Below, piece by piece: positions 2,774 to 6,319 of a DNA stretch of 39,263 bases. Source of the DNA: a virus. Location: the IMG/VR virus record IMGVR_UViG_3300007963_000015, positions 1 to 39,263 of that record, one strand, 5' to 3'. A program made the position numbers and the translations under genes. The notes below the pieces were generated by a model, which was given only the letters and a program-made list of their open reading frames with translations, did no database searches and was not told the DNA's origin. Numbering within the stretch: position 1 is the first letter of the stretch; the number at the start of each line of letters is the position of its first letter.

Positions 2774-2992
2774 TTATTTTCCTGTTAATGCATTTACTAA
2801 TGACTGAAGCGGGATCGATCCTCTCAATAGATCCCATACATAAACTGTTGCTAGTGCTATCAATGGACTAAACAATACTCCTAGCCACATTCCGGCTAGA
2901 AGATCAGAAATAAAACTAGAGCGATTAGTGATATGACGCTTAGCCACATCACGAACTCTTCCATTTCTTCGAACAATCTTTCCCCTAATCAT
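2774..2992 (-). CDS. Small membrane protein, 72 aa
   Basis: The N-terminal 25 residues are strongly basic (MIRGKIVRRNGRVRDVAKR). They are followed by one clear transmembrane segment at about residues 31-56 and a short polar tail. The basic end should stay in the cytoplasm. The ATG at 2992 has AGGAG eight bases upstream. A TTG at 2998 is also open but too close to the ribosome-binding site. It overlaps the preceding gene by 8 nt. Single-span early proteins of this kind can modify host membranes or exclude other phages, but no family is recognised. Confidence 0.66.
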   Translation of the reverse strand: MIRGKIVRRNGRVRDVAKRHITNRSSFISDLLAGMWLGVLFSPLIALATVYVWDLLRGSIPLQSLVNALTGK

Positions 2993-3332
2993 TCCCAAAT
3001 CTCCTTTTCATTTCTTTTTTGATTTGTTCTTCTTCTTTACCTAAGTCTTTAAGGAGTCCTTCATATCTATCTTTCTCAATCTGAATCAGATTTCTAACGT
3101 GGTCAGGATCTGAGTCATGATTGATATCCCTCTTAAATCTAATCAAACCTGTTTCATCGTCCTCCTCTCTATGTATTTCAGTTTCAGTATATGCATTATC
3201 ATCCTCTAGATTATGTTGAGATTGTGACTGCTGATGCCAACTACTACCCTCAATCTTTCTTTTGTTGTCGTGATACTCAGTGGTATCGAATGGCGAGTGA
3301 AATGTTCTGTCGTGTCGAATACGTTTTGGCAT
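2985..3332 (-). CDS. First gene of early operon; its start lies in a long inverted repeat, 115 aa
   Basis: The N-terminal third is basic and histidine-rich, the centre is acidic, and the C-terminal ~45 residues are a charged helix likely to form a coiled coil. I recognise no family. The ATG at 3332 follows AAAAGGAG by seven bases, so the frame open further upstream is ignored. This is the first gene after a good leftward promoter (3605-3633). Its ribosome-binding site and first ~23 codons form the left arm of the inverted repeat 3264-3572. In the mRNA the start would be paired with an upstream decayed copy, so translation may be strongly controlled by RNA folding. Confidence 0.7.
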   Translation of the reverse strand: MPKRIRHDRTFHSPFDTTEYHDNKRKIEGSSWHQQSQSQHNLEDDNAYTETEIHREEDDETGLIRFKRDINHDSDPDHVRNLIQIEKDRYEGLLKDLGKEEEQIKKEMKRRFGND

Positions 3333-3572
3333 GGTATGTCTCCTTTTCATGCCGCCTCCAATCAACTGACATCCAGCATGTCAACCCCAAAATTGCGTAG
3401 GATTTGCCGAGGAGCCACCGCACCGAAAGGCAAAGGCAAGCAATATTTTGGGGTTTACAGCTGGAAGTCAGTTGATAAAAGCGGTGCAGGAAAAGGAGAC
3501 TACCTGCTCTAAATGTGCACGACATCGACAGACATTTCCTAGACATTTCGATCCACTGAGTACCACGACAAC
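3264..3572. repeat. Long imperfect inverted repeat covering an operon leader and gene start
   Basis: Two arms of about 130 nt face each other around an axis at about 3418. Clear complementary blocks are 3264-3283 with 3553-3572 (20 nt, one difference that is a G-U pair in leftward RNA), 3338-3348 with 3490-3500 (11 of 11, including the Shine-Dalgarno site), 3361-3370 with 3467-3476 (10 of 10) and 3383-3392 with 3446-3455 (10 of 10). Every block has the same midpoint within one base. The left arm is the leader and first ~23 codons of the 115-aa gene. The right arm is a decayed inverted copy in which the start codon aligns with CTG. The leftward transcript starts just outside the right arm and would form one long rod. 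Confidence 0.9.
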
Positions 3573-3604
3573 TAAGGTTCCTTACAAACTCATTTGTTTT
3601 ACTT

Positions 3605-3633: not shown

Positions 3634-3652
3634 TTGCTATTTTAGTTTTAGT

Positions 3653-3699
3653 CTCAGCGGATTTTGTGACTACTCATCTATAGCCTCAGCGGATTTTGT
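3653..3699. repeat. Two 15-bp direct repeats beside the early promoter
   Basis: CTCAGCGGATTTTGT occurs at 3653-3667 and again at 3685-3699, exactly 32 bases (about three helical turns) apart. They lie 20-65 bases upstream of the leftward promoter, between the two giant inverted repeats. The spacing and position fit binding sites for a regulator, perhaps the double-HTH protein. That assignment is inference. Confidence 0.7.
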
Positions 3700-3814
3700 C
3701 TATATGCCACGAGTCTCTAGGGCCTAGGCCTCCTCAGCCCTAACCATTAGGCCCGCCCGCTTACCTCGGCTGCTCTGGATCTCCAGCTTAGAGCCGAGCC
3801 GCTAGGCCAAGGGC

Positions 3815-3846
3815 AAAAAAAACTCCGGGACCACTTGGCCCCGGAG
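3815..3846 (-). terminator. Intrinsic terminator after the 128-aa islet gene
   Basis: Read leftward, CTCCGGG and CCCGGAG form a GC-rich stem with a ten-base loop, followed by eight T. It lies 20 bases after the stop at 3867. A decayed version (CTCCGGGG...GTCCGACTG) is present at the matching place in the other arm, about 4882-4911, but without an intact stem or T run. Confidence 0.88.
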
Positions 3847-3866
3847 GAGATTGAACTGTTTTGGTG

Positions 3867-4253
3867 CTAGGCTATGTGCTTAGCAAACGTGGCTCTGATT
3901 GTCTCATTGCCCTTGGTCTGAATGGAATGGAACTCGATCTTGGTCCCCTTAGCAATCTTGAGATCCCGGAACTTGAGCGGTCCCTCAGCGATCAGAGTCA
4001 TGACTGCGAGGCAGAGGGCAGGATCGTAGTTGCTTGGGTAGCAAGACTTCTTGTCCTCAGTGACTGGGGAATGGACAGGTTGGTCGATCACAACAACGCC
4101 AAGACGCTCCTGTGAAGGGACCTTCTTGCCCGTGAGGTTGAAAATGCAGGCTGAACCTTTGACTGCGTCAATCTGATCCTTTAGGTCGAGGACATCGATA
4201 GTCTCGCCGAAGGGAATCAGAATGACAAGTTTCACCGTTTCTGGCTTGGACAT
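3867..4253 (-). CDS. Orphan 128-aa protein encoded in one arm of the giant inverted repeat
   Basis: No family is recognised. The protein alternates hydrophobic and polar residues in a way that suggests beta strands (VKLVILIPFG, LGVVVIDQP), has two to three cysteines, and lacks a signal peptide or membrane segment. The ATG at 4253 has AGAAAGG nine bases upstream, and the open upstream extension to 4304 is unlikely. Codons are GC-richer than in the rest of the phage, which suggests separate ancestry. The gene has its own terminator, but I see no convincing promoter. A full inverted copy lies at 4484-4864 with frameshifts and no start. A leftward RNA crossing both arms would fold the whole gene into a rod. 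Confidence 0.72.
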   Translation of the reverse strand: MSKPETVKLVILIPFGETIDVLDLKDQIDAVKGSACIFNLTGKKVPSQERLGVVVIDQPVHSPVTEDKKSCYPSNYDPALCLAVMTLIAEGPLKFRDLKIAKGTKIEFHSIQTKGNETIRATFAKHIA

Positions 4254-4483
4254 GATATTAACCTTTCTAAAAAAATGTGGTGTCCAATCTCGGAGGAACC
4301 GCAAGAGGGGAAGCGTCCAGCGTCAACCCAAATCTACGATTTTATCTTGCCCCCGCCCCACTGGACGGAGGGCAATAGAAAATCTTTGTTAGATTTGCGG
4401 TTTACGCAGGAGGAAGTCCCCTCTAGCGTCGTTCTGGAGGATTGGATACCTCTCATTTTTTTGATGGAAAGGTTAATAGCATC

Positions 4484-4864
4484 CTGTCCGTCTAAGCCAG
4501 ATACGGTCTGAAACGTGAGGAAATACCTGATTCTTCGGCGAGACCAATCGATTTGTCCGTCCTCGACCCAGAAGGTCAGATCAGACCAGTCTCAAAGATT
4601 CATGCTACTGCTTTCATCCTCACCAGCAAGAAGTCCCCACAGAGCAACTTGAACTGTGTTGTTGTGATTGACCACCAACTCTCTTCCATATCACTGAGGA
4701 CACTTCTTGCCTACCTCGCAACTTAACGATCCTGCCCTCGCCTCACGCTCTGACTGATCGTGGGACCGCACATTTCTAGGATCTCATTTGCTAAGGGGGC
4801 CGAGACCTGTTCACCATTCAGACCGGCTAATGAGACTATCGCCTCATTGCTCAGCACAGCCTAG
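4484..4864 (+). pseudogene. Decayed inverted copy of the 128-aa islet gene
   Basis: On the plus strand this 381-nt stretch aligns end to end with the 387-nt coding strand of the gene at 3867-4253. Shared blocks are TTCGGCGAGAC, GTTGTTGTGAT, CACTGAGGAC, TTGCTAAGGGG, CCATTCAGACC and the stop context AGCCTAGCACCA. The start codon position is CTG, and several indels that are not multiples of three destroy the reading frame. It cannot make the protein. Similarity continues outside the gene on both sides, so it is either a remnant of an inverted duplication or one half of a selected fold. Confidence 0.85.
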
Positions 4865-5096
4865 CACCACGTCTCACTCATCCTCCGGGGCTGTGGTCCG
4901 ACTGATTCTTTGCCCTTGGCCGCATTGTAACTGCGTGACCGTTAATACAGCGGCGAACTCTAGGATGGAGATCCTTTTCGCTGACCTCGGTATTTGCGGG
5001 CAAGGGCTGATAATGGTTAGGTGTCTGAGGGGGTCTAGGCCCCCCTGTAGTTGATGCAGTTCTGATATATATATCCGGCATCCACGATTTTTAATT

Positions 5097-5138
5097 AAAA
5101 ACCCGCTCCTTAGTAAACCCATGAAACCAAGGAACGGG
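5097..5138 (-). terminator. Intrinsic terminator after the two-gene operon 5723-5152
   Basis: Read leftward, CCCGTTCCTT pairs with AAGGAGCGGG (ten pairs, one of them G-U) across a 17-base loop, followed by five T and then AATTAAAAA. It lies 14 bases past the stop of the 86-aa gene. It should keep transcription from the right from entering the giant inverted repeat. Confidence 0.8.
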
Positions 5139-5151
5139 CGACAGATTGGGG

Positions 5152-5412
5152 CTAGTCCATTTCGAGATTCAGCATAAGTGGTGAGTGAGGTCCCATATCA
5201 ACGATCTCGATATTGTTATAATAATGCTCCCAAGCATCATCTAAGTCAAGTCCATTATCCTGAAGTTTATCAATAATCATTGAAGTAGAGTAGACTGCAA
5301 CAGGAGCAAAAGAACCAACAGTAGTAGCGGTTCCTACTAAGCAATCGTCAAATCCACAGATAACGACTGCTTCTGGATTATTATCAGTAAGGTGTTGAAG
5401 CACTGATTTCAT
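5152..5412 (-). CDS. Small conserved-type phage protein, 86 aa
   Basis: The pattern VVICGFDDCLVGTAT, then a Y/S-x-I-I-D segment, then DDAWEHYYNNIEIVDMG and a final P-x-M/L resembles a widespread small phage protein family of unknown function. That family has a GFxDxxxG motif near the start and an N-x(5)-G-x2-(S/T)-P motif near the end. This match is from memory and no search was run. The ATG at 5412 has AGGGGGA a few bases upstream. It is the second gene of a two-gene unit and is followed by a terminator. Confidence 0.75.
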   Translation of the reverse strand: MKSVLQHLTDNNPEAVVICGFDDCLVGTATTVGSFAPVAVYSTSMIIDKLQDNGLDLDDAWEHYYNNIEIVDMGPHSPLMLNLEMD

Positions 5413-5423
5413 GGTAGTCCCCC

Positions 5424-5723
5424 TTAATCTTGATGGTTGATATACTTGATAGGGGATTTAGAGTCAAGAGTATCTATACTTACAACAACTCCTAGAGGTA
5501 TAGATGTTACGCTACCAAAAGTATGATCTTTAGAAAAAGAGTCTGCTAAGGTGATGTGTTCTTTAGTTTTATGAATAATCCAGCCACAAGAAACACAAAG
5601 CATGGGTTCATGTTCTTCTTTGATTTCTGAGATAGAGCCAACCCATTCAGCTTCAGTAGTAATATCTTTCCAAACAATAACTGAAATTTTTTGAGGTAAT
5701 GGGTCTTTTTTAGAAGGGTTCAT
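5424..5723 (-). CDS. Small conserved-type phage protein, 99 aa
   Basis: The layout is V-x-W-x-D near the start, an acidic E-x-E-P-M-L segment, then C/S-x-G-W-I-I-H-K, a central hydrophobic stretch with S-F-S-K-D, and IPLGVVVSI near the end. It resembles a common family of small phage proteins of unknown function; this is recall, not a search. The ATG at 5723 is preceded by TAGGTTGATAA, giving a modest AGG ribosome-binding site. It is directly upstream of the 86-aa gene with an 11-nt gap. Its leader carries one copy of the imperfect repeat found again at 5854. Confidence 0.75.
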   Translation of the reverse strand: MNPSKKDPLPQKISVIVWKDITTEAEWVGSISEIKEEHEPMLCVSCGWIIHKTKEHITLADSFSKDHTFGSVTSIPLGVVVSIDTLDSKSPIKYINHQD

Positions 5724-5889
5724 TTATCAACCTAGATTGAGTAGATTTACTTGAAGCCTTCTCAAAACCCCCCCTCCCCCCATTTCCTTAAAAAAAGAAA
5801 ATAGACTAAGTATAGTCAAGGAGGAGGGGAGCAACAGAAGGAGAGATGCCTTGTTATCAACCTGAGTTGAGTGAGTTCACCGTCGCCTT
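5724..5889. repeat. Pair of imperfect ~36-nt direct repeats
   Basis: The stretch 5724-5760 (TTATCAACCTAGATTGAGT...GCCTT) recurs in altered form at 5854-5889 (TTATCAACCTGAGTTGAGT...GCCTT), 130 bases apart. The right copy contains a perfect small palindrome, TCAAC-CTGA-GTTGA; the left has one mismatch. The left copy forms the ribosome-binding region of the 99-aa gene. Between the copies are a C-rich run, an A-run and a GACTA-AGTA-TAGTC hairpin. This 247-nt gap holds no gene that I can see. Confidence 0.6.
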
Positions 5890-5970: not shown

Positions 5971-6297
5971 TTAAAAAGGAACGTCGTCAGTAACGGTTAC
6001 AGGGGCTTGTCTTTTTTCAGAACAGGTATCAAAGTGGCAAACACCGTCTTTGTTTACCGGAACATTTTTGCCCTTCTTAGTTTTGACCCACCAGATTTCT
6101 CCTTGACATGAGCGGCATTTACTGGCTTTTTTATGGGTAGGAACTTCGTAAACCCATTCGCCGTCGGCGTTTTGATACCGTTTGGCAGGTGCTTCATCGC
6201 CACCACTGGTTACTTGGCTGACTACACCCTGAGTCTTCAGGGTATCCCGAATCTCCGTAAGGAGACTAACAATCTGTTTCGCTGTTGCTTCATCCAT
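5971..6297 (-). CDS. Zinc-knuckle protein with an SSB-like acidic C-terminus, 108 aa
   Basis: The first 25 residues are a helix. A basic linker follows, then a zinc site of C61-x2-C64 and H88-x3-C92 around GEIWWVKTKKGKNVPV. The protein ends in TVTDDVPF, close to the DDDIPF tip by which bacterial SSB recruits replication and repair proteins. The tail could bind the same partners, and the zinc domain could bind DNA. I infer a role in DNA metabolism or in hijacking the host replisome. The ATG at 6297 has AGGGAG six bases upstream; the TTG at 6303 lies too close to it. It is the first leftward gene next to the divergent terminase gene. Confidence 0.76.
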   Translation of the reverse strand: MDEATAKQIVSLLTEIRDTLKTQGVVSQVTSGGDEAPAKRYQNADGEWVYEVPTHKKASKCRSCQGEIWWVKTKKGKNVPVNKDGVCHFDTCSEKRQAPVTVTDDVPF

Positions 6298-6319
6298 GTG
6301 CAACTCCCTTCAACGACAG

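Follow-up and report, generated by a model that had tools for sequence, protein, structure and literature searches.

Long imperfect hairpins with co-evolving arms and a conserved apex form a small family in related marine phages

The locus and its two rods

The record studied here (G000; we call its whole length of 39,263 bases the window) comes from a marine bacterial virus, and the proteins it encodes include a large terminase, a head-tail connector, a capsid protein, RecT-, RecE- and ArdC-like proteins and a double-HTH regulator. A separate contig, L001, is 99.95% identical to the window over 10.2 kb and bridges positions 1 and 39263 with about 380 bp between them, so that the window represents a nearly complete, circularly permuted genome. 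The slot considered below contains two long imperfect hairpins, rod 1 and rod 2, and the following features (window coordinates, strand, description).

3261-3379, minus: left arm of rod 2, spanning the leader and codons 1-23 of the leftward gene 2985-3329
3380-3458, plus: apical tip domain of rod 2, GTCAAC..GAGGAGCCACCGCACCG..GTTTAC, of the same kind as the rod 1 tip
3459-3575, minus: right arm of rod 2, an inverted match
3720-4321, minus: gene-bearing (left) arm of rod 1, with distal part, terminator, gene X and leader, from inverted match and fold
3815-3846, minus: intrinsic terminator of gene X, a pattern match inside the left arm, identical in the relative L002
3870-4253, minus: gene X (protein P0001, 128 aa), ATG start, intact, within the left arm of rod 1
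4262-4268, minus: ribosome-binding site of gene X, AGAAAGG, from sequence; predicted to pair with the opposite arm
4322-4405, plus: apical tip domain of rod 1, GTCAAC..GCCCCACTGGACGG..GTTTAC, common to rod 2, L002, L020 and L022
4406-5045, minus: non-coding (right) arm of rod 1, a decayed inverted copy that co-varies with the left arm; it would be the leader of gene X if transcription runs leftward
5068-5085, minus: conserved single-copy motif GTGGATGNNGGATATATA, promoter-like, directly outside the base of rod 1
5097-5139, minus: terminator-like hairpin and T-run after the upstream 86-aa gene, kept in relatives
5152-5412, minus: gene for the 86-aa neighbour (phrog_13182, function unknown), which serves as the core marker of the slot

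Rod 1 (3720-5045) is an imperfect inverted repeat of about 1.3 kb that folds as a single rod. In a self-BLAST of the window, 3805-4921 aligned with itself in inverted orientation (71% alike, 1207 columns, E 1e-102), the only inverted match obtained for rod 1, and the predicted fold extends the pairing to about 3720/5045; together these bear out the arms of about 650 nt given in the original prediction. The inverted blocks are of at most 14 nt and lie symmetrically from the apex outwards, and the inverted gene copy in the right arm is non-coding as had been claimed, with indels and a lost start codon. The apical loop of 17 nt (4353-4369) described earlier is present, but it forms the inner portion of a structured tip domain (4322-4405); likewise, rod 1 itself was correctly recognised at the outset, while the smaller rod at 3261-3575 was overlooked. 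Folding 3700-5060, a check that had been proposed, gave minimum free energies of -761.3 (+ strand) and -756.0 kcal/mol (- strand), far more stable than dinucleotide shuffles (-454 ± 13 kcal/mol, n = 40), and non-overlapping window segments of the same length, rod-containing ones included, ranged from -294 to -530 kcal/mol (n = 28). An apparent regularity of helix length, as if long perfect duplex were avoided, was dropped: the longest run in rod 1 is 14, but the tail was unconvincing.

Rod 2 (3261-3575), the smaller of the two, has arms 75.8% alike by self-BLAST and a z-score of -13.4. Between the rods lies a direct repeat, TAGTCTCAGCGGATTTTGT (3649-3667 and 3681-3699, 95% alike), and similar letters, CAGCRGATT, adjoin the rods of L020, L022 and L055.

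Gene X encodes a protein with no Pfam match and no PHROG match below E 0.3. Its reading frame is open in L002, with a dN/dS of 0.39, and its fold is undecided because the AF2 model, a mixture of strands and helices, is of low confidence (pLDDT 36). The dS of gene X between the window and L002 is 0.22, as compared to 0.12-0.37 in the neighbouring genes rightward and 0.26-1.6 leftward; we rejected this value as proof of an overlapping constraint, since the neighbours spread so widely and recombination blocks confound it. Upstream of gene X, beyond the base of the rod, the motif GTGGATGNNGGATATATA (5085-5068) comes after the terminator of the upstream gene when read leftward. The window has a single copy, as do most relatives whose sequence spans the site, rod-less ones included, and 22-24 nt past the motif stands a run of five or six G with a C-rich partner, forming a G-rich hairpin. 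By its position and its conservation only, the motif resembles a promoter, and a scan for the sigma-70 consensus did not list it, which counts against a promoter role. Further upstream, TTATCAACCTNNNTTGAGT occurs twice (5724-5742 and 5854-5872) before the gene at 5424-5723, possibly as operators, and an SSB-like acidic tail (DDVPF or DEVPF) ends the proteins encoded at window 5971-6303 (-) and at L011:4418-5110 (-).

Co-variation of the arms and recurrence of the layout

Two relatives of P0001 were found in the viral collection, L001 (99% aa identity) and L002 (87%); in the phage records and bacterial genomes searched there was no relative of P0001 or of the rod, except for one 28-base chance match. 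A relative that keeps the protein and lacks the second arm was sought, and both of the two keep the second arm; indeed L001 and L002 each retain both arms of both rods. The possibility that the arms arose by chimeric assembly is excluded because the window and L001, which are separate contigs, differ by only 2 substitutions across the rod region and because the arms, 71% alike, differ from each other at about 30% of positions. That independent contigs carry the same rods favours the original claim, and elsewhere in the group L020 and L021 are again separate contigs having the same rod, with 0 substitutions between them.

The comparison of the window with L002 reveals how the two arms change. 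In rod 1, 59 paired positions differ in the non-coding arm and 53 in the coding arm. Both sides have changed in 25 pairs, when 5.9 would be expected from independent change, and 21 of these 25 still form a standard pair; in rod 2, which is kept in L002 with compensatory changes, 5 pairs have changed and yet been kept against 0.5 expected. Exchanging arms between the two rod 1 sequences (+ strand) gave -630.2 and -682.3 kcal/mol for the chimeras, as compared to -718.5 and -692.8 for the natives, an average cost of about 49 kcal/mol per chimera, and for rod 2, where the chimeras are again weaker on average, the natives stood at -135.3 and -125.5 and the chimeras at -112.8 and -128.2 kcal/mol. 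Taken with the numbers of changes, the co-variation and the arm swap indicate that the non-coding arm is constrained about as much as the protein-coding one.

Other members of the group were retrieved through two anchors, the terminase and the 86-aa neighbour (window 5152-5412). In L055, where the homologue of the 86-aa neighbour is 57% identical, two rods stand at the same places as in the window: a large one of 1.03 kb (z -20.6), which encloses a gene for a 135-aa protein, and a small one of 0.33 kb (z -16.2). This protein has no alignable similarity to P0001 in any test run, and a match between the two suggested by eye was rejected, every homology test being negative. Similarly, the right arm of L055 pairs with the left arm of the window no better than unrelated sequence does. 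As the same two-rod layout is found with unrelated letters, the fold itself is probably preserved; the layout appears to outlive the sequence, and this is the strongest single argument for selection on shape.

Rods also occur in L020 and L021 (0.47 kb) and in L022 (0.2 kb), and the L020 and L022 rods, like rod 2, span only part of a gene. There are syntenic relatives without rods. In L012, the slot gene (L012:6450-7250) is a row of short near-perfect hairpins within coding sequence, with z about -6.7 for 500-nt stretches, and in L010, L011 and L013 the slot is present with no unusual structure. Rods therefore recur in one hypervariable slot but are not obligatory there. Wherever they were found, their arms are 69-76% alike, never better than 76%, mismatches persist, and the fold is far more stable than that of shuffled sequence.

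A tip domain of 78-84 nt is common to both window rods, both L002 rods and the L020 and L022 rods. Its layout is GTCAAC..GTTTAC enclosing an inner hairpin with SCCACYGSACSG; the stems vary in letters between rods with pairing retained, and a C.T mismatch stands at one fixed place of the outer helix in all six of these rods and also in the large rod of L055. Ten further GTCAAC..GTTTAC matches were judged to be chance, having neither an inverted repeat nor the inner motif, so that the tip is not a widespread motif; a match in L047 was judged likewise. Based on these data, related marine phages carry a small family of rods in which the arms co-evolve and the apex is conserved, and the phenomenon is broader than first noted.

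Possible functions of the rods

Selection on the fold, the central proposal of the original prediction, is well supported by the co-variation, the arm swap, the L055 layout and a non-coding arm as constrained as the coding one. This support is limited by the finding that positions unpaired in both the window and L002 change no faster than paired ones.

We tentatively put forward, as a first choice that may well prove wrong, that rod 1 is a selected long-range hairpin, probably formed by the RNA of a leftward early transcript that locks gene X. Rod 1 is read as a leftward product because the gene, its terminator and the single-copy motif GTGGATGNNGGATATATA share the leftward orientation and the motif lies at the base of the rod; the leftward RNA rod, one of the options first offered, is plausible. 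How such an RNA would arise and act is inferred: its start point, the lock on translation, the part played by the tip and the RNA nature of the rod itself. A leftward early transcript would start from the conserved motif (5085-5068), cross the non-coding arm as its leader, then the apical tip and gene X, and end at the gene X terminator (3846-3823) or at the outer base of the rod. The 640-nt leader would be complementary to the ribosome site and to the entire body of gene X (4252-4275, with the ribosome site, is predicted to pair with 4459-4482 in the leader arm), so that the message would fold into the rod and gene X would go untranslated. It would stay silent until the rod was opened or a shorter transcript started past the tip; meanwhile the rod message would be shielded from single-strand nucleases, and the shared apical domain could serve as a binding site or switch.

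The evidence as to the strand of a rod RNA is mixed. Over six rods, G.U-type wobbles in the arms favour the + strand (63 vs 39, p 0.022), which counts against leftward RNA, and the + strand fold is the more stable in 7 of 8 rods; the window and L002 alone display no wobble bias (33 vs 28). Furthermore, a lock on the ribosome site would work without 640 paired bases and without any pairing past the terminator.

This last point is better explained if the product is the rod RNA in its own right, a long duplex-like molecule of either strand that acts as a decoy, scaffold or sponge, a reading that we consider possible but somewhat unlikely. Its target, to be named with the same reserve, would be a host factor or a defence enzyme, with the tip docking and gene X expressed separately. 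Pairing well past gene X and its terminator would be expected of such a product, the wobble bias would fit RNA of the antisense (+) strand, and the persistence of the L055 layout beyond sequence, the rods that span only part of a gene and the different yet extremely hairpin-rich slot of L012 are all in line with it. It leaves the intact gene within the arm unexplained, the scan brought up no outstanding promoter or terminator on the + strand, and rod-less relatives manage without a rod. The wider proposal, that gene-bearing kilobase rods are a new class of phage element selected for shape, whose duplex-like RNA body would be the working product, is in our opinion likewise possible but somewhat unlikely; if true, sequence and encoded protein would turn over fully while the two-rod layout stays.

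It is rather unlikely that the fold is unselected and that the rods descend from an old inverted duplication whose arms stay similar passively, through template switching or hairpin-templated repair during DNA replication. The process is known: template switching in replicating DNA creates and maintains hairpins, with compensatory changes (PMC8794818). Some of the compensations are clustered, and both the lack of a clear strand bias between the window and L002 and the rate at unpaired sites agree with such upkeep. However, the helices that hold compensated pairs are no longer than average (6.5 vs 6.9 bp for all pairs, from two sequences only), the mismatches persist with no rod reaching arms more than 76% alike, and neither the L055 rod pair without shared sequence nor the conserved tip is accounted for.

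We doubt that the rods are a DNA-level signal. As such they would be hairpins, extruded or in single-stranded DNA, with a tip that is bound or nicked, and would serve replication, recombination or packaging. A conserved tip with a fixed mismatch amid otherwise changing stems would suit such a role, as would wobble counts that are mostly strand-symmetric and the direct repeats TAGTCTCAGCGGATTTTGT between the rods; on the other side, no nickase, transposase or reverse transcriptase was found among the window proteins tested, rod-less relatives replicate, and a short hairpin would suffice. The mobile cassette also suggested at the outset finds no support among the same proteins, which include no transposase, integrase or reverse transcriptase; a transposon or retron reading lacks its defining enzymes among the window proteins scanned.

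Lastly, a DNA-captured Obelisk- or viroid-like RNA replicon, although alike in its size of 1.0-1.3 kb, its rod shape and its single one-sided ORF, is very improbable, given that the rods have no Rfam match, ribozymes included (none at gathering, nothing relevant at E up to 5), that P0001 lacks the GYxDxG motif present in most, though not all, Obelisk clades and its low-confidence model mixes strand and helix where Oblin-1 is a helical bundle, and that rod 1, with its own terminator, sits in a single slot inside phage DNA contigs and not in the RNA-only circular state.

The rods and known systems

Obelisks, common marine RNA replicons (PMC11922315), share with rod 1 a rod of about 1 kb with an ORF along it, a marine setting and a fast-changing protein (PMC13096302, PMC11922315). 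The rod described here differs in being DNA-encoded in a phage slot, no recognisable Oblin or ribozyme was found, and gene X pairs with a separate non-coding arm, whereas the Obelisk ORF pairs mostly within itself (PMC13096302). Template-switch quasipalindromes (PMC8794818) have imperfect inverted arms and compensatory changes too; the rods, in contrast, are of kilobase scale, hold their arms at a steady 69-76% with persisting mismatches, and appear repeatedly at a single locus in phages, with the tip conserved. Phage rods provide a natural test of whether shape is selected while sequence is not conserved, and a case for telling selection from the upkeep of hairpins by template switching.

Type I toxin mRNAs and attenuators are examples of cis-antisense leaders or self-locked mRNAs, where an upstream stretch of the RNA base-pairs with the gene's ribosome site. 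The predicted pairing of the gene X ribosome site with its leader is similar, but the complement in rod 1 covers the whole gene, the terminator and about 100 bases more. Eukaryotic long hairpin RNA (hpRNA) genes, like rod 1, consist of coding sequence duplicated in inverted orientation on the kilobase scale, with arms that match imperfectly; the difference is that in rod 1 the gene itself is one arm, and to our knowledge RNA-interference machinery is absent from bacteria.

Coding genes and kilobase hairpins are normally mutually exclusive, long inverted repeats being unstable in DNA, and full pairing of a message should silence it. A gene retained within a co-evolving rod by a phage group, in a single slot adjoining a conserved start-like motif, points to an unrecognised role of double-stranded-like nucleic acid when phages infect their hosts. 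No named element so built is known to us or listed in Rfam, Pfam or PHROGs, and a targeted literature search, covering few of the subscription journals, yielded no phage element so described.

One part of rod 2 has exact counterparts elsewhere. The inner motif of its tip, GCCGAGGAGCCACNGCACCGNAAGGC, recurs in DPANN archaea (L067:1767-1792, L068:6861-6886 and L069:4583-4608), where it belongs to three homologous, structured, non-coding, single-copy elements that have no Rfam match. The motif is rare in that phylum: at up to 3 mismatches it was found in 2 of 371 genomes, one being an already-known copy, and about 0.03 such matches would be expected by chance in this collection.
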